From NCBI GenBank assembly GCA_005502875.1, contig SCMV01000035.1, forward strand, positions 1 through 40,521: a stretch of DNA of 40,521 nt, read 5' to 3'. Under the pieces are notes generated by a model. The model saw only the letters and a list, made by a program, of their open reading frames with translations. It searched no databases and was not told where the DNA came from. The stretch is from Comamonadaceae bacterium 2PF (GTDB lineage: Bacteria > Pseudomonadota > Gammaproteobacteria > Burkholderiales > Burkholderiaceae_C). The position numbers were made by a program, and so were the translations under genes. Every line of letters begins with the position of its first letter. Position 1 is the stretch's first letter. Below are positions 2,353 through 30,987 of the stretch, piece after piece.

Positions 2353-3302
2353 CAGGCCGTCTCTGCCTTGACATACCGACTGGTGCGGGCACCCGCCAGA
2401 CCAGCCAGGCGGCCTGCGTAATGCGCCGCCATCAGAACGTAGAGAGCAAAATCGGGGCCATCCAGCCGCAATCCACCCCAGGCCGCACGAAGAACCGACG
2501 TGAACAGGCCCTTGACCGCGCCGAACACAACACGCCACTTTCCGTCATAGCTGGCGTCGATCAAGGCCATGTACGAGCCGGTGGTCGCGTAACGCGAAAG
2601 CAAGGCCTTTCGGGTCAGGCGCTCGGCCGGAGCTGGCTCGATGACCACCGCCTCGTCACACCACACCAGCACGCCACCCGCCCTGGCCACTCGCCGAAAC
2701 AGGTCGTAGTCCTCTCCACCCGACGCTCCGTAGTCGTTGCGAAACAAGGGCAGTCCCAGTTTCTCGACCGTCGATCGGGCAATCAGCAGGTTCTGGGTGG
2801 TGTTCAACGTTTGAACCACGCCGGTGGGCCAGCGCTTGCGTTTGGCAAAAAGGCTGTTGCGCGCAAGGAGGTTGGCGCCAGGCGGCAGCTCGCCCTCCAC
2901 CGGACCACCCACGAGATCGGCACCCCAACGGCCAGCGGCACTCAGCAGTGCAGCCAGCCAGCCCGAGGTGACCCGTCCGTCGTCGTCCAGCATGATCAGG
3001 TGCTGCCAGCCGGGGCTGACGCGATCGGCCGCCGCCACGATGGCGTTGCGCACCTGGGAAACACCGCGCTCGCGAACCGCAATGCACTCGATGTGGGGAA
3101 ACAGCGCCTGGGCCGCTTCAACCACCGCCGGGGCGTCAGTGCCACATTCGTTGTCGGCGACGATCACCTTCACCCCGGTGCCAGACAACTCGGCAGCGAG
3201 GGAGCGCAACAAAATCGAGAGCAGCTCGGGTCGCCGGTACGTGGGGATGCCGATGACGACATCAGAGTGGGAGGTGTTCATGGAAATGGTTTGAGCAAGC
3301 AT
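2352..3302 (-). CDS. Glycosyltransferase family 2
   Basis: About 316 residues. Motifs of a GT2 enzyme occur in order: VVIGIPTYRRPELL, VIVADNECGTD, HLIMLDDDGRVTSGWL (the DDD metal site) and GGEDYDLFRR (the ED acceptor/catalytic motif), then a C-terminal part with a hydrophobic stretch. It is a relative of the neighbouring GT2 gene, sharing motif order and length, so the two may be old tandem duplicates acting at successive steps. The chosen ATG at 3302 overlaps the upstream acyltransferase stop as TGATG. A GTG one codon earlier and an ATG at 3281 (MNTSHSD) are alternatives. Donor and acceptor are unknown. Confidence 0.85.
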   Translation of the reverse strand: MLAQTISMNTSHSDVVIGIPTYRRPELLSILLRSLAAELSGTGVKVIVADNECGTDAPAVVEAAQALFPHIECIAVRERGVSQVRNAIVAAADRVSPGWQHLIMLDDDGRVTSGWLAALLSAAGRWGADLVGGPVEGELPPGANLLARNSLFAKRKRWPTGVVQTLNTTQNLLIARSTVEKLGLPLFRNDYGASGGEDYDLFRRVARAGGVLVWCDEAVVIEPAPAERLTRKALLSRYATTGSYMALIDASYDGKWRVVFGAVKGLFTSVLRAAWGGLRLDGPDFALYVLMAAHYAGRLAGLAGARTSRYVKAETA

Positions 3303-5191: not shown

Positions 5192-6456
5192 GTTTGTTTC
5201 TCCTGTGACTGCAGGCCCATGGAGCGGAACACGAAGATCAGGAACCAGTGAAAGCCTGCGTTGAAGACTTCGCGCGTTTCGGCCATTCCCGAAATCAGAA
5301 ACAACACGCCCAGCGAAGCGATGGCGCCAGCGCACAGGGGGTGAAGCTGATGCCCCAGGCCAAACACCAGCAGGAACACGGTGACCAGGAAGGTGGCGAG
5401 CCCCAAGAGCCCTGAATCACCCAGCACGGCGATGTACATGTTGTGCGGTGTGTAGATCTCACCAAGGTGTCCGAGCCGGTTGAGCAAGGCTTCGGTCACC
5501 ACGCTCTTGCCTGAGAACGTGCCAGGCCCCTGGCCAAACAAGGGGTGCTCCATCGCATGCTCGATGTAGATGCCCCAGATTTCGGTTCGCCCGGTCAGGG
5601 TCGGATCTTTGCCGAGCAGGTCCAGCGCGATGGGCATCACGAACTGGGACATGAGCACCAGGAACAACAGGTAGCAGACCTGCCACAACACGGACAGCCC
5701 CCATGAGACACGACCGGCCAGAGAGCGGTAGATCAAGACGTGCCCCAGCACGCACGCCCCGGCAACCAGGGACGTCGCCGACTTGGCGCCGATCAGGCTG
5801 ACGACCGCCAACAAACACACCGCAGTGGGCAGCCGCCAGTGTTGCCGTCTCCAGGTGGCAAGCCCGACCGCCAGCATCAGCGAGGCCACCCACCCAAAGG
5901 CATTCTTGTGAACAAACAACCCTCGCCATCCGGTCTGTTTCTGGATGTCGGCATCCTCTTGCAGCCCACTGCCGGACAGCACCACCGAAAGCGACAAGAT
6001 CACGAAGAAAACCCACAGCATGGTTGCAATGGCGTCCTCGGTCTTGAGGTGTCGACCGACCAGGCTGCCGCTGACGATCGTCACCACCCAAAGCAACGTC
6101 ACCCGCATGGACATCATGGGGTCTTCGCCGAACAAGGTGCAGGCCAGCGCCACGGATGCCAGGACCGTGACAGGCTTGAGGATGCTCACCATGGGGCCGG
6201 TTCCGTGGCTGCTCACGTCCCACACCAGTGCCGCCAGGATGGAGACCCAAAGGATCGATTGAAAGATGTAGAGCGGCACGTCGGTCTCGCGAAAGATGAG
6301 CCCAACGCTGGTCATCGTGCCCCCGGTCCAGATCCAGGAGTTGGAGAACTTGATCATGGCGGCAGCCATCAACGCCATCCACACCCACTTGATGTCCAGC
6401 GCGGGTGCCGTCGCGGTGCTCCGAAGTGCGCCTGTGTTCTTCATGCCGTGGTGCAT
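5188..6456 (-). CDS. Wzy/O-antigen-ligase family polymerase
   Basis: Polytopic membrane protein of about 422 residues with about 11-12 predicted spans. The Wzy_C-type signature is visible in its second half: LTGRTEIWGIYIEHAMEHP, FGQGPGTF, and PHNMYIAVLGDSGLLGL. In this family the large periplasmic loop acts either in polymerising lipid-linked repeat units (Wzy) or in ligating O-antigen to lipid A core (WaaL). With Wzx, a chain-length protein and an initiating transferase alongside and no lipid A core genes, polymerase is the better reading. The start is uncertain. ATG at 6456 is given; TTG at 6468 and ATG at 6444 are alternatives, none with a strong ribosome-binding site. Confidence 0.8.
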   Translation of the reverse strand: MHHGMKNTGALRSTATAPALDIKWVWMALMAAAMIKFSNSWIWTGGTMTSVGLIFRETDVPLYIFQSILWVSILAALVWDVSSHGTGPMVSILKPVTVLASVALACTLFGEDPMMSMRVTLLWVVTIVSGSLVGRHLKTEDAIATMLWVFFVILSLSVVLSGSGLQEDADIQKQTGWRGLFVHKNAFGWVASLMLAVGLATWRRQHWRLPTAVCLLAVVSLIGAKSATSLVAGACVLGHVLIYRSLAGRVSWGLSVLWQVCYLLFLVLMSQFVMPIALDLLGKDPTLTGRTEIWGIYIEHAMEHPLFGQGPGTFSGKSVVTEALLNRLGHLGEIYTPHNMYIAVLGDSGLLGLATFLVTVFLLVFGLGHQLHPLCAGAIASLGVLFLISGMAETREVFNAGFHWFLIFVFRSMGLQSQEKQT

Positions 6457-7467: not shown

Positions 7468-8588
7468 GCTGCCACCTTGCCGGCCTCGTCGGTGCGAGGA
7501 CGTTGCATGAGCGCCGCGTCCACCTTGCGACGCAACCAACGTGTCACGGGTTGCTCGATCCACTCGTGCACCCACTTGCCACCCAGGATCCCGGCGGCCA
7601 TGCAGACCACGATGTAGCCCTCCACAGAGGTCCAACCCATCCGGTGCCAGACCATGGCAGCCACCGTCAGGGAGAACGGGTGAGACAGGTAAATCGCGAA
7701 CGACCAGTCGCCCCCCCTGGAGAGCCAACGCTTCCAGGTTGGCAGCCGAGGGCTTTCGGGCAGGCACACGGCAGAAAGAACCAAGGCGGCGGCAGGCAGG
7801 CCCATCCACCAAGGCCTGGCCAGCCAGTTCGCACCGGTGATGCCAGACTGATGCGAGAAAACCATCCAGAGCAAGGCCACCGACGTCAAGGCCGCTGCCT
7901 GCATGCCCGAAAGCCTGAAGCCCCGCAGGCGCAACATGGCCACCCCGGCGCCCATGAGGAACTCCAGGACGATGGGGTTCCACCAGAAGTTCATGGGCGA
8001 CAGCAGTCCTGACCACGCCACCTTGTGCGCCCCACCCAAGCCAAGCACCCCGAGCACGGCGACCAATGCCATCAAGCCCCAACGCCTGGGCAAGAGCAAC
8101 GACAAGGTCATCAACAGGTAGAAGAACATTTCGAAGTTCAACGTCCAGCCCAAGATCAGGACCGGATAAAACTTTCCGTAGGCGTTCTCCCAGGGCAAGA
8201 ACACGTAGGAAGCGACAACGTGGGACCAGTCAACGCTCTTGTGGGAAACGTGTGCCGGGAACAGCAACAACGCCAGCAACATGAGGGTGGTGAACAACCA
8301 ATACATCGGCGCCACGCGCACGACACGCCGAACCAGGAAGCGCCAGGCCTCTGCGGGCTTGCCATAGCTGGCATGCCCCAAATGCAGCATGATGAAACCG
8401 CTCAGGACGAAGAAGATGTCCACCCCACCTGGCAGAAAAACCGGGGCCCAGGGGTCGAGGTCGCGACCACGCGTGAACAAGGCCTCGGTGGCCTCATGCT
8501 GGATGTGCCCGAAAAGCACCATGAACGCTGCAACGAAGCGCAAGATCTGCGCGTTGTGCAAGACGGATCGATCGGGGTCAGACGCCAT
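7464..8588 (-). CDS. Acyltransferase-3 family protein
   Basis: A 374-residue membrane protein without an SGNH domain. Motifs of the acyltransferase-3 family are ILRFVAAFMVLFGHIQHE, GVDIFFVLSGFIM, RRVVRVAPMYWLF, WTLNFEMFFY and SFAIYLSHPF, with about 10 spans and a basic C-terminal tail (RWLRRKVDAALMQRPR). It resembles ExoZ/OafA-type enzymes that add acetyl or other small acyl groups to polysaccharide. Its ATG lies 11 bases inside the end of the preceding acyltransferase/SGNH gene, and its stop overlaps the GH16 start (GTGA), so translation is probably coupled. Acyl group and target sugar are unknown. Confidence 0.88.
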   Translation of the reverse strand: MASDPDRSVLHNAQILRFVAAFMVLFGHIQHEATEALFTRGRDLDPWAPVFLPGGVDIFFVLSGFIMLHLGHASYGKPAEAWRFLVRRVVRVAPMYWLFTTLMLLALLLFPAHVSHKSVDWSHVVASYVFLPWENAYGKFYPVLILGWTLNFEMFFYLLMTLSLLLPRRWGLMALVAVLGVLGLGGAHKVAWSGLLSPMNFWWNPIVLEFLMGAGVAMLRLRGFRLSGMQAAALTSVALLWMVFSHQSGITGANWLARPWWMGLPAAALVLSAVCLPESPRLPTWKRWLSRGGDWSFAIYLSHPFSLTVAAMVWHRMGWTSVEGYIVVCMAAGILGGKWVHEWIEQPVTRWLRRKVDAALMQRPRTDEAGKVAA

Positions 8589-10569
8589 CGATCGCCCCCC
8601 GCAACCACTGACGCACGGTCAACGCGCCTGTGCGTGACAGGTGGTTGTCGTCGGCATAGAGCACCCCCGCCGAGCTTTGCACGTTGCACAACACCTGGTC
8701 GCAAAGGTGGCTGCCCAGGTCAACCACCTGAACTCGGTCTTTGGGCAGGCTGGCTTTCGCAAGAAGCTCTCGGAGTTCGCGCTGGCGAGCCTGATGTTCT
8801 TGCACGGTAACTGGCACCGACATCCTCATGTCGAACTGGTGCTTCATCGCCAAGGCCCTGGGAACGTCGTACTGCTGCTCAGGGATGTGGGCCACCAGGG
8901 TGATGCGTCGCCCCTCGAGTTCAGCGACGGTTCGCTCGATCGCCCGCACGAAAACCCGACGGTTTTCGGCATAGCTCTTCTCGAGGCTTTGGTCATCGGT
9001 GATGAAAATGTTGCCCTGATGGAACTGGCCGAACCTCGTGCCCAGCAGCGCGGAAGTCCAGCGACTCACCCAGACAACATCTTTGATTTCAGGGTTCGAC
9101 TTCAGGTATGCCACCGCAGCTTTGGCGAATTCCTCGCATCGGGGATCCTGCTGACGAACGCCTAACAGGGGAAAGCAGCCGCTGTGCGTGAGCACCACGC
9201 CTTGCTTGCCCCCATCCTTGCCCAGTTGATCAAGGCCCGGAGCCAGCGCGTCGCCAAAACTGTCACCCCACAAGGCATAACTGGGATTGATCAGTGTGCC
9301 CGACGGGTCAGCCGCCTGGCCCATTTCACAAGCGAGACCCTGCGTGACCTTGGACGGCTCCACCCTGTCACACCTTGCACGCAGCGGGTTCACGTCCAGG
9401 GCTGCGCGTGCCAACTCCTGAGCCACTGGATCCCAGCGCTGAGGCAAGCCGTGCGTGAGTTGCAGGCTCACTGCCCACACCACAGCCGCCACCGCCGACG
9501 CACCCACGAGCGACACAACCCTGGGACGGCTCCACCTGACCGCACCCAGCATGCCGCGTGGCGGGCTTTCAATCCACCGCCAACTCATCCATGACACCAG
9601 CCACAGAACCAAGCCGTAAGCCAGCAACTCGAACAGCTCAAGGTCTCTGAACAGGACGTACCTCGCCAGCACCAGCAAAGGCCAGTGCCACAGGTACATC
9701 GAATACGACACCCGGCCGATGTGCTGCAAAAAGCCGTTGGCCAAGGCACGCTGCGCCCAGCCATGCGGTTGAGGGCTCACCCCTGCTGCGAGCACCAGCG
9801 CGGTACCCAAACACGGCAGCATCGCCTGCCAACCGGGGTAGCCTTGAGGCGCAGGCATGCCGAACATGCACAGCAGCAACAGCGCCACACCTGGGTACGC
9901 CAGCCAGCGCTGCCCGCGCTGCAACCAGCCCCAGTGCGGCGCCGCCAGCGCCAGGCAGGCGCCGATGGACAACTCCCACCAACGAGACATGGGCAAGTAA
10001 AAAGCCCAATCAGGGCGGAACCAGCCGGCCCACGTCGACCAGGCAAACGACAGCACACCCAAACCACTCAGCAGGCGCAGTCGCGACGCCAATGTCCAGC
10101 TCCGCGACCACATCATCAGAATCGGGAACAGCAGGTAAAACTGCTCCTCGACCCCGAGGGACCAGGTGTGCAGCAGCGGCTTGAGTTCCGAGGCCGGGTC
10201 AAAGTAGCCCGCCTTGAAGTGGAAGTACAAGTTGGACGCAGACAAGACCGTGGCCAACACACTTTGGCCGTATGCCTTGAGGTCCACAGGCGCCAGGACC
10301 ACGGCAAAAATCGCGCTCATGACGGCCAGCATGAACACCATGGCAGGCCACAGGCGGCGAAAGCGCTGCACATAGAACTCGGACAACGCGAAGGCGCCCT
10401 TGGTCAGGGATTGGTCAATGGTGCCTGCGATCAGGAAGCCCGAAATGACGAAGAACACGTCCACGCCGACGTAGCCGCCCACCAGCGGGGTTCCCCCCAC
10501 GTGAAACAGCACGACTGGCAAGATCGCCAGCGCCCTCAGTCCATCGATGTCCGGTCGATGCGCGCTCAT
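8578..10569 (-). CDS. Acyltransferase-3 / SGNH fusion (OafA-like)
   Basis: A 663-residue fusion. The N-terminal acyltransferase-3 domain shows RPDIDGLRALAILPVVLFHVG, GVDVFFVISGFLIAG, RFRRLWPAMVF, HTWSLGVEEQFYLLFP and VSYSMYLWHWPLL. The C-terminal SGNH domain has GDSFGDAL (serine near 437) and a closing DDNH box. It matches the fusion at 3302-5191 in architecture, and some stretches match at nucleotide level (compare 5048-5090 with 10440-10482), so the two are paralogues with probably different acceptors. The ATG at 10569 begins the family motif. A GTG at 10587 forming a GTGA overlap with the upstream gene is equally possible. Predicted to O-acylate the exopolysaccharide at the inner membrane. 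Confidence 0.9.
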   Translation of the reverse strand: MSAHRPDIDGLRALAILPVVLFHVGGTPLVGGYVGVDVFFVISGFLIAGTIDQSLTKGAFALSEFYVQRFRRLWPAMVFMLAVMSAIFAVVLAPVDLKAYGQSVLATVLSASNLYFHFKAGYFDPASELKPLLHTWSLGVEEQFYLLFPILMMWSRSWTLASRLRLLSGLGVLSFAWSTWAGWFRPDWAFYLPMSRWWELSIGACLALAAPHWGWLQRGQRWLAYPGVALLLLCMFGMPAPQGYPGWQAMLPCLGTALVLAAGVSPQPHGWAQRALANGFLQHIGRVSYSMYLWHWPLLVLARYVLFRDLELFELLAYGLVLWLVSWMSWRWIESPPRGMLGAVRWSRPRVVSLVGASAVAAVVWAVSLQLTHGLPQRWDPVAQELARAALDVNPLRARCDRVEPSKVTQGLACEMGQAADPSGTLINPSYALWGDSFGDALAPGLDQLGKDGGKQGVVLTHSGCFPLLGVRQQDPRCEEFAKAAVAYLKSNPEIKDVVWVSRWTSALLGTRFGQFHQGNIFITDDQSLEKSYAENRRVFVRAIERTVAELEGRRITLVAHIPEQQYDVPRALAMKHQFDMRMSVPVTVQEHQARQRELRELLAKASLPKDRVQVVDLGSHLCDQVLCNVQSSAGVLYADDNHLSRTGALTVRQWLRGAIDGV

Positions 10570-10583
10570 GCTGGTCGCCCCGC

Positions 10584-11246
10584 TCACCAGTACCGCTCGA
10601 AGCGGTACTCGCCCTCGGCACGCTCGCGCAACACCTTGGCAGGCACACCAGCGATCACGGCGTTGGTCGCCTGCAGTCGCTTGGTGACCACTGCACCCAT
10701 GCCAACCATGCACCCATCGCCAACGCCTGAGCCGGGCACGAAACGAACCGCAGAGCCCAGGTAGCAGCGCTCACCGATGTGGATGTCACGCTCCACCGCA
10801 CTGGCCCCATGCGTCAAGAAGTGGGACTGGTATCCGGCGACCCAGGTTCCGGCACCGATGCGGACCTCGCCCACCACGTCAAAGATGTGGCTGTCATTGA
10901 TCAGCGCAGCTTCTCCGACCACCAGGCGACGTGCGTACCCCATGTGCGCCTGGGAAGGGTCGGCAACCGCTTCACCACACTCGAAGCGATTCCAGCGACC
11001 AATGAACACCTTGTCCGCCAACTCCACTGCGAAGGGCCCGATGAAAGAAGTGCCGCGGCGGATGACAACCCCCTGGCCGCACTTGAACCGCTGAACGGCG
11101 ATGATCACGCCCCACGCGATTCGCGCAGACGGGTGAATGTCCGCGCCAAACACCCACACCAGCAGGCTTCGGCGAACGATGGCAAATGGGAGCCAAGCAA
11201 CACCATAGGCAGCGAGCTTGAGGAGCTTTCGCCCGATTCCACTCAT
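10584..11246 (-). CDS. Hexapeptide-repeat acyltransferase
   Basis: A 220-residue protein with left-handed beta-helix (LbH, hexapeptide) repeats from about residue 40 on, such as ADIHPSARIAWGV, IGAGTWVAGYQ, IGERCYLGSAVRFVPG and VGDGCMVGMGAVVTK, ending in the classic ViaGVPAKVLRER. A His in the FLTHG segment is a plausible catalytic base. Such enzymes (LacA/WcaF/maltose-acetyltransferase-like) use acetyl-CoA to O- or N-acetylate sugars in the cytoplasm. This gives the operon a cytosolic acyl-transfer step besides its membrane ones. An N-terminal amphipathic or hydrophobic stretch (LLKLAAYGVAWLPFAIV) may tether it to the membrane. The ATG at 11246 overlaps the upstream stop (ATGA). Confidence 0.87.
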   Translation of the reverse strand: MSGIGRKLLKLAAYGVAWLPFAIVRRSLLVWVFGADIHPSARIAWGVIIAVQRFKCGQGVVIRRGTSFIGPFAVELADKVFIGRWNRFECGEAVADPSQAHMGYARRLVVGEAALINDSHIFDVVGEVRIGAGTWVAGYQSHFLTHGASAVERDIHIGERCYLGSAVRFVPGSGVGDGCMVGMGAVVTKRLQATNAVIAGVPAKVLRERAEGEYRFERYW

Positions 11247-12364
11247 GTGTTGTCCCCTTGCGGGCAGCGGACGCTCGATGCGTTCACAGGTCTGACGGCA
11301 CGCCTCATTTTTTTCGTCAAAGTGTCTTCCAGCCAACGTTGAGACAAGTGCGACACCAACAGGGTTGGCGCCAAGGAAAGGGCAAAAAACCAGAACTGAG
11401 CACCATCACCCACTGCATCGGTCAGACCAACGCGCGACATCGCGTGCTTGACCAGCGCCATCACAATGGTTTGCCACAGGTACAAGCTGAAGCTGATGGT
11501 GCCCAACCATTGAAGGGTGGGGCTCTTGAGCCAGCGGCTCACGGTGCCTGCTTGCAGCAAGATGCCTCCCATGCCCAAATATGCAAATCCGATGCCAAGG
11601 CTCAGGTACGACAGCGCGACGCAAGACACCCACAGAGGCTGGTCCGGCAAGTGGCTCACGCTCCAGGGCAAGTCCCAGCGCTCAAAGGCCTCGTACCAGG
11701 CCAACAGCGCCAACGAAAGCCAAAGACCGGGTCTGGACATGGCCTTTTGCACGAGGGGAGCCGCCTCAGCAGGGGGACGCCACACCAACGCCAGCCCAAC
11801 CAGGAAACAGGCCGCACGCAGGTGGGTGAGGATCAGACCGACCACCAGCGCGATCAGGATGGCCCTGGCCATCGGCCCTGGCATCCAACGGTTGAGCAGC
11901 GCATGGACCACGAACAAGCCGTAGAAGGCGAACTCGTAGCTGATGGACCATGCTGCCGGATGGATCAGTGGGATGGGCAAAAGCGGGGGCAACGCAAACA
12001 GGTTCGCCACCCAGACCTCCAACGAAGGCCTGGGCACCCCCTTGAACACCGACAGGACCGCGATCACCGACACCGTGACCCACAACACTGGGTAAATTCG
12101 GGTGACGCGGTTCCATGCAAAGTCGAACAGGGTGGGAGACGATCGGAACGATTGCAGGATGACCACACCACTGATGCAGAAAAACAGCTCCACCCCGAAC
12201 TCAAGGCACCTGAGAACGTGATCGAGTGCATCGGCGGCGAGCCCCTGAGGGCGGTCCAAACCCGAATTGGCAACGTGGAACAAAAAAAGGGCAAAAGCCA
12301 GCGCGCCCCTCAAGCCATGAAGGGTGGTTGACCTGGCCAAGGGGGGCGCAAGCGGCTGGGTCAC
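11243..12364 (-). CDS. Acyltransferase-3 family protein
   Basis: A 373-residue polytopic protein. Acyltransferase-3 motifs are LHGLRGALAFALFLFHV, GVELFFCISGVVIL, WNRVTRIYPVLWV, AAWSISYEFAFYGLF and ISFSLYLWQTIV. The C-terminal tail is basic (LTKKMRRAV). The GTG start at 12364 is well supported: a GGAGGG ribosome-binding site lies 7 bases upstream, and it overlaps the preceding stop by 4 bases (GTGA). It lacks an SGNH domain. It follows directly after another acyltransferase-3 gene but has clearly different loop sequences, so it is not a recent duplicate. Predicted to acylate a sugar of the EPS repeat unit; substrate unknown. Confidence 0.87.
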   Translation of the reverse strand: MTQPLAPPLARSTTLHGLRGALAFALFLFHVANSGLDRPQGLAADALDHVLRCLEFGVELFFCISGVVILQSFRSSPTLFDFAWNRVTRIYPVLWVTVSVIAVLSVFKGVPRPSLEVWVANLFALPPLLPIPLIHPAAWSISYEFAFYGLFVVHALLNRWMPGPMARAILIALVVGLILTHLRAACFLVGLALVWRPPAEAAPLVQKAMSRPGLWLSLALLAWYEAFERWDLPWSVSHLPDQPLWVSCVALSYLSLGIGFAYLGMGGILLQAGTVSRWLKSPTLQWLGTISFSLYLWQTIVMALVKHAMSRVGLTDAVGDGAQFWFFALSLAPTLLVSHLSQRWLEDTLTKKMRRAVRPVNASSVRCPQGDNT

Positions 12365-13458: not shown

Positions 13459-14620
13459 GTCGCCAGGACTCCATGGCCTTGTCATACACCTGCCGGGTTC
13501 GGTCTCCGATCTCTGTCCAACTGCCACCGCCGCCTGCGGCGTCAGGAGAAGGCCGCGTGAGGCAGGCTTCTTCGATGGCGGCTGCCAGGGCCGCGACGTC
13601 TTCGCTGGGCACCAGCCGGCCTTCCTGGCCGTCCAACATGTCTTCCTTGAAGACGCCGACAGCGCTGGCGATCATCCAGCGTCGAAGCGATTTGGTCAGG
13701 TAATACACGCCGCTGGCGTCGATCTGTCGGTATGGAAAGACCAGGCTGTCGGCCACGGCAAAGAGGTCGGCCATCTCCTCGTCCGAAAGGCGGCGAGGGA
13801 CCCACTCCACAACGCCGTCGAGTTGCAGTTCACTCGCCTGGCGCTGCAATGGCTCGATGTCCATGCGAGGACGCCCGGCAACGATCAACCTCAAACTGGA
13901 TTTGATCTCTTGCGGCAGAGTGGCCATCGCACTCAGGATCACATCAACGCCTTTGTAGGGCTTGATCTCGCCGAACAAAACCAGGGTGTAGCGTCCCCGA
14001 TCCTCATGGAAGGCCGATGTGGCCGCGGCTGGCGGCGCCACTTTCAGTGCGAGGGGGCCATGGCGAACCACATCGATCTTGCTGGCGGGCAGGCCACGCG
14101 CCACCAGGTTGGCGCGCCCTGCCTGCGTGTGCACGATGAGGCGGTCCGACGACCACAGGGGTTGATCGAAGCCATTGTTGTGAAAGGTCGAGATCTTTTC
14201 ACCGTTGAAGGGCACTGTGTCGTGCACGGTGAGAACAACCGGAGACCAGCGACGAAGCTGCCGGATGAACCATGCGTCGATTTTCGGCAGCACCGCCCAC
14301 TGGAAATGGACCACATCAGGGCGACGCCTCCAGACCTTGAACAAAAGCTGGCTCAAGCCCCAGATGTGCGAAACACCCTTGAGCGCAAGACGCAATTTCT
14401 CGGGCAAGAAATCAAGCCCGTCCACCCAGCGGTAGAAGTACGGGTCAACGAATTCAGCCTCGATTTCTGCCTGGTCTCCCTTTCGCAGCGGTCGCGTGGC
14501 CCATTGCGGCAACACGTTGTGAGCAACCAAGCCTTGCGTGAGCGCACCATCGTACGGACCCGTGAACAGGGAAGGGTCCACCAGCATCACGCGCATGTTT
14601 GAAGCCATGGTGTCGCTCAC
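13445..14620 (-). CDS. Glycosyltransferase family 4 (GT-B)
   Basis: A 391-residue GT-B glycosyltransferase. The N-terminal acceptor half contains DVVHFQWAVLPKIDAW and SPVVLTVHDTVPFNG. The C-terminal nucleotide-sugar half contains YTLVLFGEIKPYKGVDVIL and the donor-site region SLVFPYRQIDASGVYYLT, where the usual GT4 EGFGL-type sequence is replaced by IDASGVYYL. It is cytoplasmic or peripheral at the inner membrane and extends the lipid-linked repeat unit. A GTG start at 14620 overlaps the EpsG-like stop (GTGA). In-frame ATGs at 14608 and 14596 are alternatives. The linkage made is unknown. Confidence 0.85.
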   Translation of the reverse strand: MSDTMASNMRVMLVDPSLFTGPYDGALTQGLVAHNVLPQWATRPLRKGDQAEIEAEFVDPYFYRWVDGLDFLPEKLRLALKGVSHIWGLSQLLFKVWRRRPDVVHFQWAVLPKIDAWFIRQLRRWSPVVLTVHDTVPFNGEKISTFHNNGFDQPLWSSDRLIVHTQAGRANLVARGLPASKIDVVRHGPLALKVAPPAAATSAFHEDRGRYTLVLFGEIKPYKGVDVILSAMATLPQEIKSSLRLIVAGRPRMDIEPLQRQASELQLDGVVEWVPRRLSDEEMADLFAVADSLVFPYRQIDASGVYYLTKSLRRWMIASAVGVFKEDMLDGQEGRLVPSEDVAALAAAIEEACLTRPSPDAAGGGGSWTEIGDRTRQVYDKAMESWRHERG

Positions 14621-15531
14621 GCGTCGTTCATGACCAGCCCGGCAACCGCCACCGGGTCTCGACCAATCGCCTGCACGAGCGCTTTGAGCGCCGGCTTGGG
14701 CGTCATGCCCTTGCGTCCGACCAGCAAAGCCGCGCCCGACTTGGCGGCAACCACGCGCGCATCCGCTCCCAATTCATGCGCTGGGGTGTCGACGATCACG
14801 AAATCGTATTGAGCCAACGCCTCGTTGATCACCGCATCCATGGTCACCGACTGCAGCAACTCCAGCGGGTTGGGCGGCACGATCCCTGCCGACAGGGCGT
14901 GCAGTGCAGGAAAAGACTTCAAAGGTCGCTCAGGCCGCAGCCCGGTGCGTCCCGCCAAGATGGCGGTCAACCCCCTGTCCGGATCCACCCGCAGCATCTT
15001 GTGAATCCGGGGCCTGCGCAGGTTGGCATCGATCAGCAACGTGCGTGCACCCATCTGACTGAAGCTCAAAGCCAGGTTGGCAGCAAAGAACGAACAACCC
15101 GCGCCGCTTTCCGCGCCAAGAACCGCAAGGGCTCGCTTGGCTGAGCGCGGGTTGAGCACGCCCATGATCAGCTGACTGCGCAAGTCGCGAAACACCTCCG
15201 ACGCCTGCGACATCGGGTCGGTCGCCACCACCAGTTCCTGGCAAATCGGTTCGCGCGCATCGGCCATCGGGTAGGCAAACTGCTTGGAAAGGGCCCAGAG
15301 CACCTCACCCTCGCTGACCATCTTCAAGGCGACAGCCGCCTCGCCAAAGCGCAGGCCTGTCTTGCGCTGGTGCTCGCCAATTTGGGCCAGCTGCTCTTCA
15401 GACAAGCGCCTGACGCTCTGCAGGTACGCGCCGATCGAGCGCTCTTCATTGGCTGGTGCCGCCAAGGGCCGCTCGTTGGACGGCAGACCGCGCGATGGAG
15501 GCAAGGCGAGGGATTCAGACATGTCGGCCAT
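14617..15531 (-). CDS. epsG: EpsG-type chain-length kinase-like ATPase with altered Walker A
   Basis: A 304-residue protein with the architecture of the EpsG/BY-kinase-like partner of chain-length proteins. Residues about 32-92 resemble the GspE/MshE N-terminal domain (RRLSEEQLAQIG, GLRFGEAAVAL). A MinD-like P-loop domain follows, with TLLIDANLRRP (Walker A-prime, near 164) and YDFVIVDTP (Walker B, near 242). The P-loop reads GAESGAGCS, so Cys146 (TGT) occupies the position of the invariant Walker A lysine. As far as I recall, EpsG relatives often carry Arg there. The C-terminus ends VAGLVMNDA with no tyrosine cluster, so autophosphorylation of the classical BY-kinase type is unlikely. It starts 3 bases after the EpsF-like stop. 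Confidence 0.85.
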   Translation of the reverse strand: MADMSESLALPPSRGLPSNERPLAAPANEERSIGAYLQSVRRLSEEQLAQIGEHQRKTGLRFGEAAVALKMVSEGEVLWALSKQFAYPMADAREPICQELVVATDPMSQASEVFRDLRSQLIMGVLNPRSAKRALAVLGAESGAGCSFFAANLALSFSQMGARTLLIDANLRRPRIHKMLRVDPDRGLTAILAGRTGLRPERPLKSFPALHALSAGIVPPNPLELLQSVTMDAVINEALAQYDFVIVDTPAHELGADARVVAAKSGAALLVGRKGMTPKPALKALVQAIGRDPVAVAGLVMNDA

Positions 15532-15534
15532 TCT

Positions 15535-16959
15535 TCAGCGAGGCAGGTGAAGGAAGGAGGCCGGCACGGTCAACGCGGGGCTCACTGCGCCGGATTTTTT
15601 AGCGATCGAAGCCACGTGAGACAACTCCGCCAGCAAGGGAATGTTCAGGTCGACTTCCACGTCCCTTCGGGTCAGCAGGCGAGGGGAGATGAGCTCCCGC
15701 ACGAACGCGGCAACCATGGCCAAAATCGCACCACCCAGGACGCCCAACGAGATGTTCCGCAGCAAGGACGGCGATGAGGCCCCCGCTGGCACCGAAGCAG
15801 CCTTGACCACTGTGACATTGGTTTGCGTGTTCTGACTTTCAAGGTCCACCTGGCTCATCCGGGCCTGGACCGCATCCAGGGCTTTTTGGGCACTGCTGAC
15901 GTCCTTGATGAGGATCGACGCCTGGTCCTGTTTTGACTTGAGATCCTGGATGCGGCGGCGCTGTTCATTGACTGCTTGCTGCAACTGAACCAACTTGGCC
16001 CGATTGATGGCACCGGTCACGTTCAACCCACTCGAGACGCGCGCAGACTCTGCCGCGATGCGTCCTTTGAGTTGTGCCACGTTGGCTGTCACGGCCTTGA
16101 GCTCAGGGTACTCAGCTCCATACCTCTGCATGAGCTCTTCTCGGCGAGCCTCTTGCCGAGCGAGCTCGGAGGTCAGCGCCGTCACCAGTTGGTTGTTGAG
16201 GATCTCCTGGGCATTGCCTGTCTGCGTTGACGTCAGTTGCTGCCTTGCAGCCGCCTCCGACGTGAGCGCCTGCAGCGCCACCATCTGAGAGTTGAGTTCC
16301 GCCAGCCTGGCACCTTCGATGTCCATGCGTTCATCGGTCGGAACAATGCCGTTTTGCTCCTGGTAGTCACGGACCTTCTTCTGCGCAGCGTCAAGTTGGC
16401 GCTTGAGGGCCTCAGCACGCTGCTCGAAGAAGGCTCGGTACTGCTTGGCAGGCTCGACACGCATGTCCAGGGTCAAATCAACATACGCCTGCACCACGGC
16501 ATTCGCCATCGCAGCGGCCATTTCCGGGCTGCGAGACGAGAACGACACCTGGATGACACTGGACTCGCGGCTCGGCTTGACCACAAGGTCTCGCCGCATG
16601 ACATCGGCTTGCCAAGCCTGTCGGTCGCCCACCCCACCGGTTGCCGCCTGCCATTGCTCCTTGAACGCATCGCTGGCGTCGAGCCCAGTGGCCCTGATGG
16701 CGCGCTTGATGACCCGCTCGCTTGCAATCAAATCGGTCTGCGTGGCGATGAATCCCGTGGCGACCACGCCAGGCAGCACCACACCAGCCATGGGATCGAC
16801 CGCCGCAGGCTTGCCGTCAACGTGGATGGCAGCAGAGGCGACGTAGGTCTTGGGCGTCACCAAGGTGATGACGATCACGGCCAACAGGACGAACGAGAAA
16901 ACGCCCAGCGCCAAGCGGCGTCTGGCAAAAATCATGGCGAGCAGTTGGTGAATCGTCAT
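15535..16959 (-). CDS. epsF: EpsF-type chain-length determinant protein (Wzz-like)
   Basis: About 474 residues. A cytoplasmic N-terminus (MTIHQLLAMIFARRR) is followed by TM1 (LALGVFSFVLLAVIVITLV), a long periplasmic domain with predicted coiled-coil helices (about 170-380, Q/E/A-rich), TM2 (ISLGVLGGAILAMVAAFV), and a short cytoplasmic tail (LTRRDVEVDLNIPLLAELS) of the Wzz/GumC form. The segment GVVLPGVVATGFIATQTDLIASERV matches the EpsF subgroup. It is predicted to set polymer length and bridge synthesis to export, working with the EpsG-like ATPase encoded next. ATG 16959 is chosen for fit to the family N-terminus; a GTG at 16983 would overlap the upstream gene by 14 bases. Confidence 0.87.
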   Translation of the reverse strand: MTIHQLLAMIFARRRLALGVFSFVLLAVIVITLVTPKTYVASAAIHVDGKPAAVDPMAGVVLPGVVATGFIATQTDLIASERVIKRAIRATGLDASDAFKEQWQAATGGVGDRQAWQADVMRRDLVVKPSRESSVIQVSFSSRSPEMAAAMANAVVQAYVDLTLDMRVEPAKQYRAFFEQRAEALKRQLDAAQKKVRDYQEQNGIVPTDERMDIEGARLAELNSQMVALQALTSEAAARQQLTSTQTGNAQEILNNQLVTALTSELARQEARREELMQRYGAEYPELKAVTANVAQLKGRIAAESARVSSGLNVTGAINRAKLVQLQQAVNEQRRRIQDLKSKQDQASILIKDVSSAQKALDAVQARMSQVDLESQNTQTNVTVVKAASVPAGASSPSLLRNISLGVLGGAILAMVAAFVRELISPRLLTRRDVEVDLNIPLLAELSHVASIAKKSGAVSPALTVPASFLHLPR

Positions 16960-16969
16960 GCTGTCTGAC

Positions 16970-17998
16970 TCAGGTTGTGCCACAGGCGTTCAAGGGCTGC
17001 GCCATGCCCGGCTCCCACCGGTCTTCGCGCTCTTTGACGAGCCCGCGCAAGAAGCCGAAAGCCCAAGCGTTGTGCAAGGCCAGGGCTGCGGGGAAAGCCA
17101 GCATCGCCTCCACTTGGCGGTGACGCGCCAGCAGATGAACGGTCGTGGCCGCGATGGCGCAAAGGTAGAGCAATGGCAAGAGCCAGAAAGCAGGCCAGAC
17201 GCAACCGAGGCCCAGGGCCATGACCTGCGCCAAGAAGTTCGCCGGGACCAGCAACTGCCTTGGTCGCCATGACCCAGGGTGCTTGCGGATCGTTCGTGAG
17301 CGGCCTGCTCCGTAGTTCTGGTACTGCCGCCACAAGCCACCGAAGCTGTCGCGCGGCAGGTACCCGATGCGGATGTCGCTGTCGAGGTAGATCTTCGAGC
17401 CCAGCGCACGCTGTCGGCAATCGAGTTCGGCGTCCTCGTTGTGACTGAAGGTTTCGTCGTACCCCCCGGCGCGGCAGAACGAGGCCATGCTGAACGCAGC
17501 GTGATGTCCGTGATCGACAAAGCCGCTTCGCGCGCCGCCACGGTGAGCAGAGCCACCCGATCCCACCAAGGTGTCAGAGACCCAGGCGATGGCCCTCTGC
17601 CAGGGCGACTCACCCACGGAGTCCATCGGGACCACCACGGCGTCAGCGCCATGCTCGACCATCGACTCGTGCAGGCGTTGCAGGAAGCCCGGCGGGTAGC
17701 TGGCATGGGCATCACATCGCACAAGCAGGCTGCGCCCCGCTGCATGGTGCCTGACAGCCAGGTTGACTGCGGCGCTTTGCAAGCGACGCGGGTTGTGCAT
17801 CAGCACAAGCGACCAGGGAAACGACGCTGAGAGCCTGCGCACGATCTCCGGTGTTCCATCGGTGCTTCCGCCATCGGCCACAACGAACTGCACGGGCGCA
17901 GCGGCAGGCAAACCGACGCACAACTCGCCAAGCACTTGTTCGATGTGCGCGGCTTCGTTGAGCGTGGGGATGACAACCAGGGTGTGGGGCAATTCCAT
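16970..17998 (-). CDS. ExoA-like glycosyltransferase family 2
   Basis: About 342 residues, first gene of the leftward operon. The GT2 domain shows VVIPTLNEAAHIEQVL, VVADGGSTDGT, VRCDAHASYPPGFL, and the HNEDAELDCR acidic motif followed by YGAGRSRTIRKHP. The C-terminal third has three predicted membrane spans. The order and the GGYDETFSHNEDAELD segment recall succinoglycan transferase ExoA. It probably adds an early sugar onto the lipid carrier primed by the transferase at 18312. The ATG at 17998 is preferred because it leaves a 5-prime leader of about 30 bases behind the candidate -24/-12 element at 18040-18055. An upstream in-frame GTG at 18022 would leave only about 7. Confidence 0.85.
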   Translation of the reverse strand: MELPHTLVVIPTLNEAAHIEQVLGELCVGLPAAAPVQFVVADGGSTDGTPEIVRRLSASFPWSLVLMHNPRRLQSAAVNLAVRHHAAGRSLLVRCDAHASYPPGFLQRLHESMVEHGADAVVVPMDSVGESPWQRAIAWVSDTLVGSGGSAHRGGARSGFVDHGHHAAFSMASFCRAGGYDETFSHNEDAELDCRQRALGSKIYLDSDIRIGYLPRDSFGGLWRQYQNYGAGRSRTIRKHPGSWRPRQLLVPANFLAQVMALGLGCVWPAFWLLPLLYLCAIAATTVHLLARHRQVEAMLAFPAALALHNAWAFGFLRGLVKEREDRWEPGMAQPLNACGTT

Positions 17999-18039
17999 GA
18001 TCGTGACGGGTTGAACGGGCACGGGTTTTCCAGAACATA

Positions 18040-18055
18040 AGCACAGGTCATGCCC
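18040..18055 (-). promoter_or_regulatory. Candidate sigma-54 promoter for the leftward EPS operon
   Basis: Read on the minus strand the element is GGGCATGACCTGTGCT. The invariant GG-N10-GC spacing is kept, and 9 of the 12 specified positions of TGGCACR-N4-TTGCW match. The predicted start of transcription, near 18029, lies about 30 bases before the ATG at 17998. On its own it is only suggestive. Its position divergent to a much stronger -24/-12 element adds weight. Confidence 0.42.
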
Positions 18056-18130
18056 ACTCGTGGTTCATCTTTGCGAGACGCCCCCCTTTGGCCGGGGGTG
18101 ACGCCCCGGACTTGCGCAACGTCAGGCCCT

Positions 18131-18147
18131 CGCCCCGCATCGGGGCG
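18131..18147. repeat. Short perfect palindrome in the divergent EPS promoter region
   Basis: CGCCCCG-CAT-CGGGGCG: perfect 7-bp arms with a 3-base spacer. It abuts and shares four bases (18144-18147) with the left arm of the 11-bp inverted repeat. It could be an operator or simply a structure-prone GC block. It is not followed by a T-run on either strand. Confidence 0.5.
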
Positions 18148-18196
18148 CACCAACAGCAGGCGCCTTGTGTCAAAAAGCATCCGGAGTTGGTGCGCC
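18144..18196. promoter_or_regulatory. 11-bp inverted repeat between divergent sigma-54 promoters (candidate enhancer)
   Basis: The left arm GGCGCACCAAC (18144-18154) and the right arm GTTGGTGCGCC (18186-18196) are exact reverse complements separated by 31 bases. Arm centres are 42 bases apart, about four helical turns, so both would face the same side of the DNA. Relative to the predicted rightward start near 18271 the arms lie at about -122 and -80. That is the range used by upstream activating sequences of NtrC-family activators. Binding by such an activator, for example one of the PrsR type, is inference; no such gene is in the window. Confidence 0.5.
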
Positions 18197-18244
18197 ATCG
18201 CGAGTGAAGACCCGTTCAGGCCGCGCCTCACCCATCCGGCCACA

Positions 18245-18260
18245 TGGCACACCACATGCA
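18245..18260 (+). promoter_or_regulatory. Sigma-54 (-24/-12) promoter of the sugar transferase gene
   Basis: The element TGGCACACCACATGCA matches 11 of the 12 specified positions of the sigma-54 consensus TGGCACR-N4-TTGCW, with exact GG-N10-GC spacing. The predicted transcription start near 18271 leaves a leader of about 40 bases to the ATG at 18312, which is preceded by AGGGAG. This implies RpoN- and activator-dependent control of the initiating step of EPS synthesis. Confidence 0.72.
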
Positions 18261-18311
18261 TTACAGAAAAGCAAGGCAGGAAAACCTGCATCCTCAAGGG
18301 AGCCTCCAGAC

Positions 18312-18989
18312 ATGCCCAGCTCAACGTCCTATGTGGTCACAGGCCTGAGCGTCAAGTCACGCCTGCGCGAGAAGAACCGCTTCGATCGCCTCATCACCTG
18401 GCTCAACCAGTTGGGCGCCGCCATCTTGCTCACGCTGTTCGCCCCGCTGATGGCCGTGGTCGCCTGGCTCATCTGGCGCCGAGACGGCAGCCCCATCTTC
18501 TTCGGGCACTACCGCGTGGGCCGCGACGGCCAGATGTTCAAGTGCTGGAAGTTCCGCAGCATGGTGCTGAACTCGGCCGAGATGCTGGCCGAGCTGCTCA
18601 AGAACGACCCGGCCGCCAAGGCCGAGTGGGACCGCGACCAAAAGCTCACCAACGACCCCCGCATCACCCCCGTGGGCGCCTTCCTGCGCAAGACCAGCCT
18701 GGACGAGCTGCCCCAGCTGTTCAACGTGCTCAAGGGCGAGATGCGGCTGGTGGGCCCCCGCCCCATCACCCTGGCCGAACTCGACCGCTACGGCGAAGCG
18801 CGCTGGCACTACCTCAACGCCATGCCCGGCATGACGGGCCTGTGGCAGGTCAGCGGCCGCAGCGACACCACCTATGAAGAGCGCGTCGAGCTCGACCGCG
18901 ACTACGTCGAGCAACGCAGCCTCTGGAGCGACGCGGTGATCCTGGTCAAGACCATCGCCGTGGTCCTGGGCAAAGGTGGCGCGCGCTGA
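18312..18989 (+). CDS. Undecaprenyl-phosphate sugar phosphotransferase (WcaJ/ExoY type)
   Basis: A 225-residue initiating glycosyl-1-phosphate transferase of the bacterial sugar transferase family, in the short ExoY-like form with no multi-span N-terminal domain. It has one membrane-embedded segment (AAILLTLFAPLMAVVAWLIW) followed by the catalytic core: FKCWKFRSM, ITPVGAFLRKTSLDELPQL, GEMRLVGPRPI and MPGMTGLWQVSGRSD. Members transfer a hexose-1-phosphate to undecaprenyl phosphate, starting the repeat unit. The ATG at 18312 has an AGGGAG ribosome-binding site and lies behind the sigma-54 element. The frame is open upstream to 18165, but that part is not family-like and contains the promoter. 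Sugar specificity is unknown. Confidence 0.92.
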   Translation: MPSSTSYVVTGLSVKSRLREKNRFDRLITWLNQLGAAILLTLFAPLMAVVAWLIWRRDGSPIFFGHYRVGRDGQMFKCWKFRSMVLNSAEMLAELLKNDPAAKAEWDRDQKLTNDPRITPVGAFLRKTSLDELPQLFNVLKGEMRLVGPRPITLAELDRYGEARWHYLNAMPGMTGLWQVSGRSDTTYEERVELDRDYVEQRSLWSDAVILVKTIAVVLGKGGAR

Positions 18990-19003: not shown

Positions 19004-20167
19004 ATGACCAACCTCTCCGACGTTCAACACGCCTTGTCGCCCCCACCAGGTCACGTCCTGCACATCGTGGGCGACCTCACCGAAGCCGTCTTCGGCTTCA
19101 TGGGCCCGGCCACCGACACCCTTGCGCGCGCCGGCTACCGGCAGAACGTGGTGATGCTCGACCAGCCCCGGCATCGCCACCTGCAAAGCCGCTTTCACAA
19201 AAGCATCCACCTCGTCACCGTGCCGTGTGAAGAACGCAGCCGTCGGCACTGGCTGACCCTGTCCGGCGTGGTGCAGCAGCAGATCGGCCAGCACGCCTTC
19301 AGCGCGGTGCACCTGCATGGCTTCCTGCCCTGGGCCCTGGGCACGCGCATGGGCCGGCTGCTGCCGCGCGAGACCCGTGTCTATTACTCGCCGCACGGCT
19401 CTCGCACGCTCGGCCTGCTGCGCCCGCTGCAGACCACGGTGGGCGCGCTGATGTCGATGGCCGGGGTGCGCCAGCCCGAGGTCATCGCCAGCAGCCTGTC
19501 CGACGCCCAGCGGCTCAAAGGCCTGGTCGCCGCCGCCATCAAGACGGCCGAGACGCCCGTTGACGAGCGCTTCTTCGACGCCGAGCGCCACGAAGCCCGC
19601 CGCCCCCTGCTCGTCTCGGGCGACGCGGAGGGCAACCCGCGCTCGGTCGAGCTGTTCTGCCGCCTGGCGGTGTTGCTCAGCGCCGCCGAGCTGGGGCTGA
19701 GCTTCAACTGGTTCGGCCCCACCGACGAGCTCACCGCCGCACGCCTGAAGGCGGCCAACGTGGGCGGCTACGCCATCGACGAAACCGCCGAGCTCGTCTC
19801 GCGCCTGTCTGCCGGCTGGATCTTCATGGCCGCCAGCGAGGCCGAGCAGTTCCCCGTCATGCTGAGCTGGGCCATGGCCCTGGGCCTGCCCTGCGTGGCC
19901 GCCGACACGCCCCACCACCGCGACCTGATCCGCGACGGCGCCACCGGCCTGCTCTACCGCTCCGAAGAAGAAGCGCTGGCCCAGGTCAGCCGCCTCATCG
20001 ACGACCCGGCCCTGCGCGACAAGCTCGGCCAGGCCGCGCGCCAGCAGGTGCGCGAGCGCCTGAGCCCCGCGCGCATGGACCAGGCCATCCTGGGCGCCTA
20101 CGCGGGCGCAGCCCAGCCCAGCGCAGCGGCAGCCCGCGTGAGCCCGCCTGAACAGAGCCCGGCGTGA
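19004..20167 (+). CDS. Glycosyltransferase family 4 (GT-B)
   Basis: A 387-residue GT-B protein 14 bases after the sugar transferase, probably cotranscribed. The N-terminal half has a Rossmann-like start (GHVLHIVGDLTEAVFGFMG) and HLHGFLPWALGTRMG. The C-terminal donor half has GWIFMAASEAEQFPVMLSWAMALGLPCVAA then HRDLIRDGATGLLY, the usual GT4 layout with an E-x7-type motif. The Ala/Pro-rich tail after about residue 365 looks disordered. It probably adds the second or a later sugar of the repeat unit. Codon use matches the genes to its right rather than the leftward operon. Confidence 0.85.
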   Translation: MTNLSDVQHALSPPPGHVLHIVGDLTEAVFGFMGPATDTLARAGYRQNVVMLDQPRHRHLQSRFHKSIHLVTVPCEERSRRHWLTLSGVVQQQIGQHAFSAVHLHGFLPWALGTRMGRLLPRETRVYYSPHGSRTLGLLRPLQTTVGALMSMAGVRQPEVIASSLSDAQRLKGLVAAAIKTAETPVDERFFDAERHEARRPLLVSGDAEGNPRSVELFCRLAVLLSAAELGLSFNWFGPTDELTAARLKAANVGGYAIDETAELVSRLSAGWIFMAASEAEQFPVMLSWAMALGLPCVAADTPHHRDLIRDGATGLLYRSEEEALAQVSRLIDDPALRDKLGQAARQQVRERLSPARMDQAILGAYAGAAQPSAAAARVSPPEQSPA

Positions 20168-29361: not shown

Positions 29362-30987
29362 ATGCCCAGCCAGCCACCCGGCACGCCACCTGCCTCGATC
29401 GACGACCTGCTGGTCGACCCGCAACAGGCCCTCGCCGACCGCCGTGAAGCGCCCTATCGCCTGATCTTCCATCGCGCGGGCATCGGCATGGTGCGCCTGA
29501 GCCTGTCGGGCACCATCCTCGAAGTCAACCAGCGTTTTGCCGACATCGTCGGCAGGCAGACGCGCGACCTCATCGGCCTGCATGCCGAAGACATCACGCA
29601 CCCGCAAGACATCGTGCCCTCCCGCGCGCACCTGGAAAACGTGCTGGGCGGTGGCCAGGAGGGCTTTCAGACCGAAAAGCGCTACGTGCGCCCCGACGGC
29701 CAGGCCGTGTGGGCCGCCGTCAACGTCGTGCTGCTGCGCGACGACAGCGGCCAGCCCCGCGAGCTGGTCGCCGTCATCGAAGACATCACCGAGCGCCAGC
29801 GCATGCAGGAGGCCATGAACTCCGCGCGCGCGGCCGAGCGCGCCAGCAAGGCCAAGACGGAGTTCCTCTCGCGCATGAGCCACGAGCTGCGCACCCCGCT
29901 CAACGCCATGCTGGGTTTCGCGCAGCTGCTGCGGGTCGACCCACGCCACCCGCTGCACGACGACCAGCGCACCAAGGTCGCCCACATCGAGCGCGCCGGC
30001 GCCCACCTGCTGGCCATGCTCACCGACGTGCTCGACCTGTCGCGCATCGAGGCCGGCAGCCTGCCCATGTCGATCGAGCCTTTGGCGGTCAACGACGTCA
30101 TCGAGGCCGCGCTGGCGATGACCAGCAACCAGGCCACCGACGCCAGCGTGCAACTGCTGGCCACCCCGCCCGAGGCCGGCTTGCGCGTGCGCGCCGACCA
30201 ACTGCGACTGCGCCAGGTGCTGGTCAACCTGCTGAGCAACGCCATCAAGTACAACCGCCGCTCGGGCCAGGTGCTGGTCGAGGCCATGGGCGTGGGTGAC
30301 GAGGTCGTCATCAGCGTCAGCGACACCGGCCGGGGCATGGACGCGCAGCAAATCGCCCACCTCTTCGAGCCCTTCAACCGCCTGGGCGCCGAGCGCACGC
30401 CCATCGAAGGCACCGGCATCGGCCTGGTCATCGTCAAGCGCCTGGTCGAGCTGATGCAAGGGCGCATCGAGGTCAGCAGCCAGCCCGAGGCGGGCACGCG
30501 CTTTCGCATCTGGCTGCCACGCGCGGCCCGCCAGGTCGAGGCCGAAGACAGCGACTTCGGTCAACGCATCCGCACCAACTTCGGCAGCCTGGACACCGGG
30601 GTCGATGCCACGCTGACCCTGCTCTACGCCGAAGACAACGCCATCAACGTCGAACTGCTGCGCCAGGTCATGCGCATGCGCCCGCAGTGGCACCTCGAAA
30701 TCGCCCGCGACGGCCACACCGCCATCGCCATGGCGCGGGCCGAGCCGCCCGACCTGCTGCTGCTGGACATGCACCTGGGTGACATGAGCGGCCTCGATGT
30801 GTCCGACGCCCTGATGATGGACACGCACACGGCCCTGATCCCGCGCGTGGCGCTGTCCGCCGACGTCATGCCCGACCAGATCGCCGAGGCGCGCCAGCGC
30901 GGCTTCGTCGAGTACCTGACCAAACCGCTGGACGTCTCGCGGCTGCTGAACCTGCTCGACTGTTGCGCGCGGGGCGAGGTGCCTTGA
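29362..30987 (+). CDS. PAS-domain hybrid histidine kinase, soluble
   Basis: A 541-residue cytoplasmic kinase without membrane spans. A PAS domain with PAC segment (about 30-145: RLIFHRAGIGMVRLSLSG, GRQTRDLIGLHAEDITHP, AVIEDITERQRM) is followed by HisKA with FLSRMSHELRTPLNAM (His174). The HATPase has NLLSNAIKYN, DTGRGMD and GTGIGLVI. The receiver domain has YAEDNAINVELL, phospho-acceptor Asp469 in LLLLDMHLGDM, and Lys521 in LTKPLD. PAS could sense redox, light or a small ligand; no cofactor-binding residue is evident to me. It has no adjacent response regulator. Its stop abuts the flavin reductase stop on the other strand (TGATCA at 30985-30990). Confidence 0.9.
   Translation: MPSQPPGTPPASIDDLLVDPQQALADRREAPYRLIFHRAGIGMVRLSLSGTILEVNQRFADIVGRQTRDLIGLHAEDITHPQDIVPSRAHLENVLGGGQEGFQTEKRYVRPDGQAVWAAVNVVLLRDDSGQPRELVAVIEDITERQRMQEAMNSARAAERASKAKTEFLSRMSHELRTPLNAMLGFAQLLRVDPRHPLHDDQRTKVAHIERAGAHLLAMLTDVLDLSRIEAGSLPMSIEPLAVNDVIEAALAMTSNQATDASVQLLATPPEAGLRVRADQLRLRQVLVNLLSNAIKYNRRSGQVLVEAMGVGDEVVISVSDTGRGMDAQQIAHLFEPFNRLGAERTPIEGTGIGLVIVKRLVELMQGRIEVSSQPEAGTRFRIWLPRAARQVEAEDSDFGQRIRTNFGSLDTGVDATLTLLYAEDNAINVELLRQVMRMRPQWHLEIARDGHTAIAMARAEPPDLLLLDMHLGDMSGLDVSDALMMDTHTALIPRVALSADVMPDQIAEARQRGFVEYLTKPLDVSRLLNLLDCCARGEVP

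Follow-up and report, generated by a model that had tools for sequence, protein, structure and literature searches.

Which signals drive the two divergently transcribed halves of an exopolysaccharide (EPS) locus, and could a single short intergenic region switch on both? The locus in question lies on contig SCMV01000035.1 of Comamonadaceae bacterium 2PF, a member of the Aquabacterium group; of this contig we analysed the stretch from position 1 to 40,521 (the window), and its halves are separated by a gap (18023-18311) for which the initial annotation had proposed two divergent sigma-54 promoters.

The gap, its flanking genes and two candidate -24/-12 elements

The features of the gap and its surroundings are as follows:

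14617-15531, minus strand: EpsG-type tyrosine kinase (236.5 bits, cut-off 313.8)
15535-16983, minus strand: chain-length determinant EpsF (422.7 bits, cut-off 422.75)
16970-18022, minus strand: GT2 glycosyltransferase opening the leftward unit, with GTG 18022 or ATG 17998 as start
18039-18069, no strand: 31-bp block identical in the window and genome G028 (from the alignment), containing the left element and an adjacent CCAC-TC-GTGG dyad
18040-18055, minus strand: weaker putative -24/-12 element GGGCATGACCTGTGCT, 9 of 12 consensus positions, predicted start about 18029
18131-18147, no strand: short G+C palindrome CGCCCCG-CAT-CGGGGCG, present in G028 with a single change
18144-18196, no strand: inverted repeat GGCGCACCAAC ... 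GTTGGTGCGCC, located between the left and right elements, a candidate activator site
18245-18260, plus strand: putative sigma-54 -24/-12 element TGGCACACCACATGCA, 11 of 12 consensus positions, predicted start about 18271
18312-18989, plus strand: initiating sugar-phosphate transferase, WbaP-like, short form (PF02397)
19004-20167, plus strand: GT4-type glycosyltransferase, next after the transferase

Profile searches place the GT2, EpsF and EpsG genes first in the leftward unit, whilst the rest of it, up to the window edge, encodes glycosyltransferases, acyltransferase-like proteins and a beta-glycanase-like protein, all of which score below their family cut-offs. This unit had been described as an operon of 15 genes: 15 leftward frames were indeed scanned between 110 and 18022, but because some of these overlap strongly the number is an upper figure. 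Two large proteins of the unit (3302-5335 and 8578-10713) resemble SucT-like acyltransferases, far below the SucT cut-off, and the EpsG-type kinase shows a weak N-terminal match to an MshE-related c-di-GMP-binding domain (33.7 bits, cut-off 38). Close relatives of the locus are found in Aquabacterium, with the transferase of A. parvum B6 exhibiting 99% identity. Elsewhere in the same genome (contig C19, locus L161) a second EpsF-like gene, recognised by eye, adjoins an exosortase, and the genome therefore probably holds another EPS locus of similar type.

Both elements were confirmed as the initial annotation had described them, with one mismatch to the consensus in the rightward and three in the leftward element, each at exact GG-N10-GC spacing. 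Scores were obtained with a matrix built on general literature frequencies of the sigma-54 consensus, and the matrix-free counts given below likewise use a general consensus. The rightward element is the sole one-mismatch match in the 40.5-kb window and its top-scoring sigma-54 site (17.0 bits), with about 0.011 sites of at most one mismatch expected per gap-sized stretch over both strands (rate taken from some 149 kb of the genome, window included). Its predicted start, 12 bases from the C of the -12 motif, lies 41 nt before ATG 18312. The second-best sigma-54-like site of the window (11582-11597, leftward, 14.6 bits) is located inside a predicted frame of the leftward EPS operon. Across the 4.18-Mb genome the exact pattern TGGCACNNNNNWTGCW occurs 16 times, the rightward element included, and a reversed control pattern twice; two of the other 15 sites precede genes for an MFS transporter and an NMT1-like binding protein, both of which we take to be nitrogen-related.

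The leftward element scores 9.6 bits, and 0.36 sites as good by mismatches (three or fewer) or 0.24 by score (at least 9 bits) are expected per such gap; over the whole window, matches with up to three mismatches are no commoner than in shuffles (123, shuffle mean 143). As the element is thus not above chance when taken alone, its support comes solely from comparison with related loci. From its predicted start it is 31 nt to ATG 17998 but just 7 nt to the other possible start codon, GTG 18022, and of the two codons the latter seems by eye to be served by the better Shine-Dalgarno-like sequence.

The rightward element in orthologous loci

Orthologs of the transferase were sought in 80 relatives and in 399 genomes of the family, 33 of which (the own genome included) gave a match at E <= 1e-60. 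The 11 best loci of the former search (L022-L032) were scored, and five of the 35 listed matches of the latter had no locus and went unscored. The ortholog comparison comprised 40 scored loci. For the counts, 28 short-form orthologs were kept and 12 loci dropped (L030-L032 and L183-L191), these being mostly long-form transferases with an N-terminal extension, along with L186 at a contig edge. This choice was made after the scores had been seen; none of the dropped loci reaches 9 bits on either strand, and the result for all 40 loci is 14 forward and none reverse.

In 14 of the 28 short-form orthologs the 170 bp preceding the aligned start contain a forward element of at least 9 bits; a reverse-strand element occurs in none of them, and dinucleotide shuffles (200 runs) gave a mean of 1.69 and never more than 6. 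At 11 bits or more, the counts are 10 forward and 0 reverse out of 28 (shuffle mean 0.49, maximum 4). Matrix-free counting led to a comparable picture at up to two mismatches (12/28 forward, 0/28 reverse, 0/26 far upstream) and up to three (14/28, 1/28 and 1/26), with the contrast weak once four are allowed (18/28, 9/28 and 8/26). It is this forward excess that argues against both elements being unused chance matches, a possibility that we judge very improbable despite the 16 exact sites in the genome, several of which fall within predicted reading frames.

The scan of orthologous loci proposed by the initial annotation gave a divided answer: the rightward element is kept in 7 of 13 genera, whilst left-facing elements were seen, amongst the divergent loci tested, within Aquabacterium only, as detailed in the next section. 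By genus code, the rightward element is found in g1 (5/7), g92 (3/3), g128 (2/2) and g148, g130, g171 and g132 (1/1 each); it is absent from g90 (0/5), g84 and g147 (0/2 each) and g136, g101 and g37 (0/1 each). Amongst the seven Aquabacterium orthologs it tends to stay, being absent only from G021 and G004: A. parvum carries the identical 16 bases in the same place, G028 differs by one spacer change and G036 exhibits a two-mismatch form. Between genera, TGGC and GC are kept at most sites while the spacer varies, which speaks for selection as opposed to recent common descent. The rightward element is thus probably a working and fairly widespread sigma-54 promoter of the initiating transferase: cross-genus conservation supports its role as a promoter, and its predicted use of RpoN follows from the motif.

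Left-facing elements and the variable left unit

Left-facing elements were found in all five divergent Aquabacterium loci tested; G036 and G010 were left aside, as neither showed a left gene that was clearly divergent. The scores are 9.6 bits in the window, 9.6 in G028 (identical at all 16 positions), 15.1 in A. parvum, 12.2 in G021 and 11.5 in G004, and the corresponding fractions of 500 composition shuffles are 0.034, 0.036, 0, 0.006 and 0.006, the window and G028 not being independent of each other. None of the five divergent loci tested in other genera exhibits such an element (best 6.8 bits), and the left promoter is for this reason a genus-level feature at most.

The first left gene differs among these Aquabacterium loci. 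It is the GT2 gene in the window and G028, whereas in A. parvum it encodes an EpsF-type chain-length determinant (409.4 bits, cut-off 422.75), 30 bases before which lies the left-facing element TGGCACGCGGCGTGCT, stronger than that of the window; the left half of the A. parvum gap is unrelated to the window's. G021 and G004 have an exosortase gene in this place (PF09721 above cut-off in both); the G004 protein just passes the XrtB cut-off (275.8 bits, cut-off 275), and that of G021 is truncated where the contig stops. From the end of the G004 element it is 12 bases to the first ATG considered; since the XrtB profile starts at residue 25 of this frame, translation more likely begins at a later ATG, some 52 bases beyond the element. 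The transferase of G021 has a PEP-CTERM protein gene (L149:1225-2490; NF038126, 53.9 bits, cut-off 50; PF07589) immediately upstream, and the exosortase there is divergent.

A competing explanation is that the rightward element alone acts as a sigma-54 promoter and that the leftward operon uses another promoter, with 18039-18069 serving as a protein-binding palindrome that overlaps a poor -24/-12 match. The left element being within chance by itself is in line with this, as are its absence from the loci tested outside Aquabacterium and the conserved block, which extends 14 bp past the element and holds the palindrome CCAC-TC-GTGG. Nevertheless, in Aquabacterium left-facing elements precede three different kinds of left gene, three of them scoring at least 11.5 bits, and a simple scan of 17950-18350 returned no sigma-70-type promoter. 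We consider this explanation rather unlikely. The left element is, judging from the sequence comparisons, a probable promoter within Aquabacterium, and the reading that we favour and regard as likely is that the gap is a bidirectional control region, with an RpoN-dependent rightward promoter and, in Aquabacterium, a second one facing left. Against it weigh the orthologs and genera without the rightward element, the weakness of the left element and the closeness of its predicted start to GTG 18022, the absence of left-facing elements from the loci tested in other genera, and the Aquincola finding on EPS genes described below.

Comparison of the window with A. parvum (18039-18311 against L052) reveals that the 99% identical transferase and the last 80 or so bases before it are shared, while the remaining gap and the first left gene differ; there appears to be an exchange point inside the promoter region. 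The divergent region had no match in a plasmid collection.

Candidate activators, proposed mechanism and known systems

RpoN is encoded in the genome, as are 12 matches to enhancer-binding proteins, eight of them strong and none on the contig of the window. Of the strong ones, three pass family cut-offs, namely NtrC (683 bits, cut-off 558.6), NifA (693.6, cut-off 528.85) and PrpR (611.2, cut-off 499.2); the others are the PilR of a PilS/PilR-like pair, whose partner has a 6TM_PilS domain above cut-off, and four more. On contig C43 (L159), genes that look phage-tail-like by eye adjoin that of another enhancer-binding protein, which is short and shows no evident sensor domain.

The initial annotation had looked to PrsK/PrsR-type regulators and suggested a search of the full genome for them. 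Here the genome check went against it: neither PrsR (TIGR02915, best 366.2 bits, cut-off 502.6) nor PrsK (TIGR02916, best 86.8 bits, cut-off 300) passes its family cut-off. The best PrsK match of the genome is the histidine-kinase region at 30064-30519, within the window. Motif 1 of the PEP-CTERM box closes with TTTACA at its 3' side and lies 32-92 bases ahead of the -24/-12 motif (PMC1569441). Neither TTTACA nor TGTAAA occurs 30-230 bases upstream of the rightward element in the window, and TTTACA is found in one of the 14 element-bearing upstream regions. PrsR itself passes the cut-off in 5 of the 28 ortholog genomes but in only 2 of the 14 element-bearing ones (40 candidates scored per genome). 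Control by PrsK/PrsR through a PEP-CTERM box is hence extremely improbable, although the genome holds two exosortases and at least one PEP-CTERM protein, and PrsR-box promoters are of sigma-54 type (PMC1569441).

The activator would accordingly not be a recognisable PrsR, and co-occurrence leaves NtrC and the PilS/PilR-like pair as candidates. Orthologs of the activators were searched for in eight genomes (E <= 1e-40), and complete activator sets were compared for five element-bearing genomes: clear orthologs in every genome of the five were found for just two activators, NtrC (76-87%) and the PilR-like protein (62-72%), and each of the other six strong activators is missing or only distantly related in at least one. 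With NtrC as driver, EPS production would be linked to nitrogen status; with PilR, to the control of type IV pili. The co-occurrence is weak evidence, however, because both proteins may occur in most relatives anyway.

Binding-site searches bear on the same question. The shuffles for the ortholog counts and NtrC half-sites preserved dinucleotides, whilst those for motif discovery, the left element, TTGCTGCAGTGYRTCAA and the TTTACA and PilR tests preserved base composition only. Motif discovery, applied to all element-bearing upstream regions except L024 and L164 (12 of 14), gave only small gains over six shuffles per width, which were run with fewer restarts. The arms of the inverted repeat at 18144-18196 resemble NtrC half-sites. 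The 8-base core arms of this repeat occur nowhere else in the genome at a spacing of 15-45 bases, and its distance from the -24 motifs (some 50-100 bases on the right and 90-140 on the left) would make it a fair place for an activator. NtrC-like half-sites (GCACCA/TGGTGC) number 10 in the 14 element-bearing regions, the shuffle mean being 3.4, but the idea came from the window itself; without the window's clade there are 5 against a mean of 2.3 (shuffle fraction 0.098), and element-negative loci hold 6 (fraction 0.073). The best match in the window to the full NtrC dyad agrees at 10 of 14 fixed bases, so that no full dyad is present there, and the NtrC site was set aside as the shared activator site. 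In case of PilR, TGTCAA, which was picked after motif discovery and resembles the PilR half-site, occurs 4 times compared to 0.74 in shuffles (fraction 0.007), whereas the PilR consensus [CG]TGTC shows no clear enrichment (17 against 11.3, fraction 0.083); the literature search found this consensus in no paper. Taken together, NtrC or PilR as the driver is a possibility to which we attach somewhat less than even weight.

A further pattern, the dyad TTGCTGCAGTGYRTCAA, is exact once per genome in G132 (L249), G243 (L164) and G188 (L251), each time in the EPS gap, the pattern having been derived from these three genomes themselves; in the nine genomes searched there are six one-mismatch places, including one in the genome to which the window belongs, and a control pattern gave two. 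As a shared activator site it was rejected, being strong in only 3 of the 14 element-bearing regions and absent from the window; weaker matches are found in L180 (12.1 bits), L023 (9.0) and the element-negative L171 (10.8). It may instead be a lineage-specific activator site in the three relatives.

Returning to the favoured bidirectional reading, RpoN holoenzyme would occupy the rightward -24/-12 element, and ATP hydrolysis by an enhancer-binding protein that had been loaded upstream would open the promoter, with transcription from about 18271 covering the initiating transferase and the GT4 gene. In Aquabacterium the second, left-facing element would serve the divergent EPS operon likewise, and one activator placed between both elements could fire both promoters. 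A bolder version, which we put forward as speculative and on balance doubtful, is that of a sigma-54 switch with an exchangeable cassette: a single RpoN activator would fire both EPS initiation and a variable assembly or modification operon, each arriving left unit bringing its own left-facing element and a right element tending to remain. If this activator were PilR, EPS would be coupled to type IV pili.

If the favoured reading is correct, EPS synthesis itself is under RpoN control in several genera of the Burkholderiales, with its first committed step as the target, and this would suggest how such bacteria link matrix production to nutrient or surface signals. A search of titles and abstracts found no sigma-54 promoter before this transferase in Aquabacterium. 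In E. coli, the hyc/hyp genes are served by two divergent sigma-54 promoters under one activator, an arrangement that was tested experimentally; these are hydrogenase genes, whereas here the genes are those of EPS synthesis and the promoters are predicted from sequence.

Sigma-54 promoters have generally been tied to genes for exterior polysaccharides including EPS by Francke and co-workers in 2011, with the words undecaprenyl and sugar transferase absent from the main text (PMC3162934). In the 2006 work of Haft and co-workers, a PEP-CTERM box of sigma-54 type was predicted along with PrsK/PrsR; it is similar to the present case in that a sigma-54 motif lies upstream of genes from the world of EPS and exosortases (PMC1569441). 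Unlike in that system, motif 1 was not found upstream of the rightward element in the window, nor were PrsR and PrsK above cut-off in the genome. In Burkholderia cenocepacia, a bacterium of the Burkholderia group, RpoN and the enhancer-binding protein BerB control berA and the bep EPS and raise EPS expression; the RpoN target there is the regulator gene berA, whereas here the element precedes the biosynthetic genes themselves (PMC5552954).

For floc formers, the initial annotation had taken RpoN control of both EPS and PEP-CTERM genes as reported, which holds for the latter only: in Aquincola tertiaricarbonis RN12, a strain with four rpoN paralogues, an RpoN1 promoter was mapped before the PEP-CTERM gene pepA, while the rpoN1 mutant still makes EPS and transcription of the EPS genes seems independent of RpoN1 (PMC9850573). 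The pepA promoter is likewise of -24/-12 type, with a mapped start and TGGCAC as -24 motif, and an enhancer sequence had previously been predicted upstream of it (PMC9850573). Its product is reported to be a protein that keeps EPS cell-bound (PMC9850573), so that in Aquincola RpoN1 is reported to act on EPS retention, in contrast to the control of EPS synthesis proposed here. Against these systems, the bidirectional and modular arrangement suggested by our comparisons would represent an interesting twist on a known promoter type.
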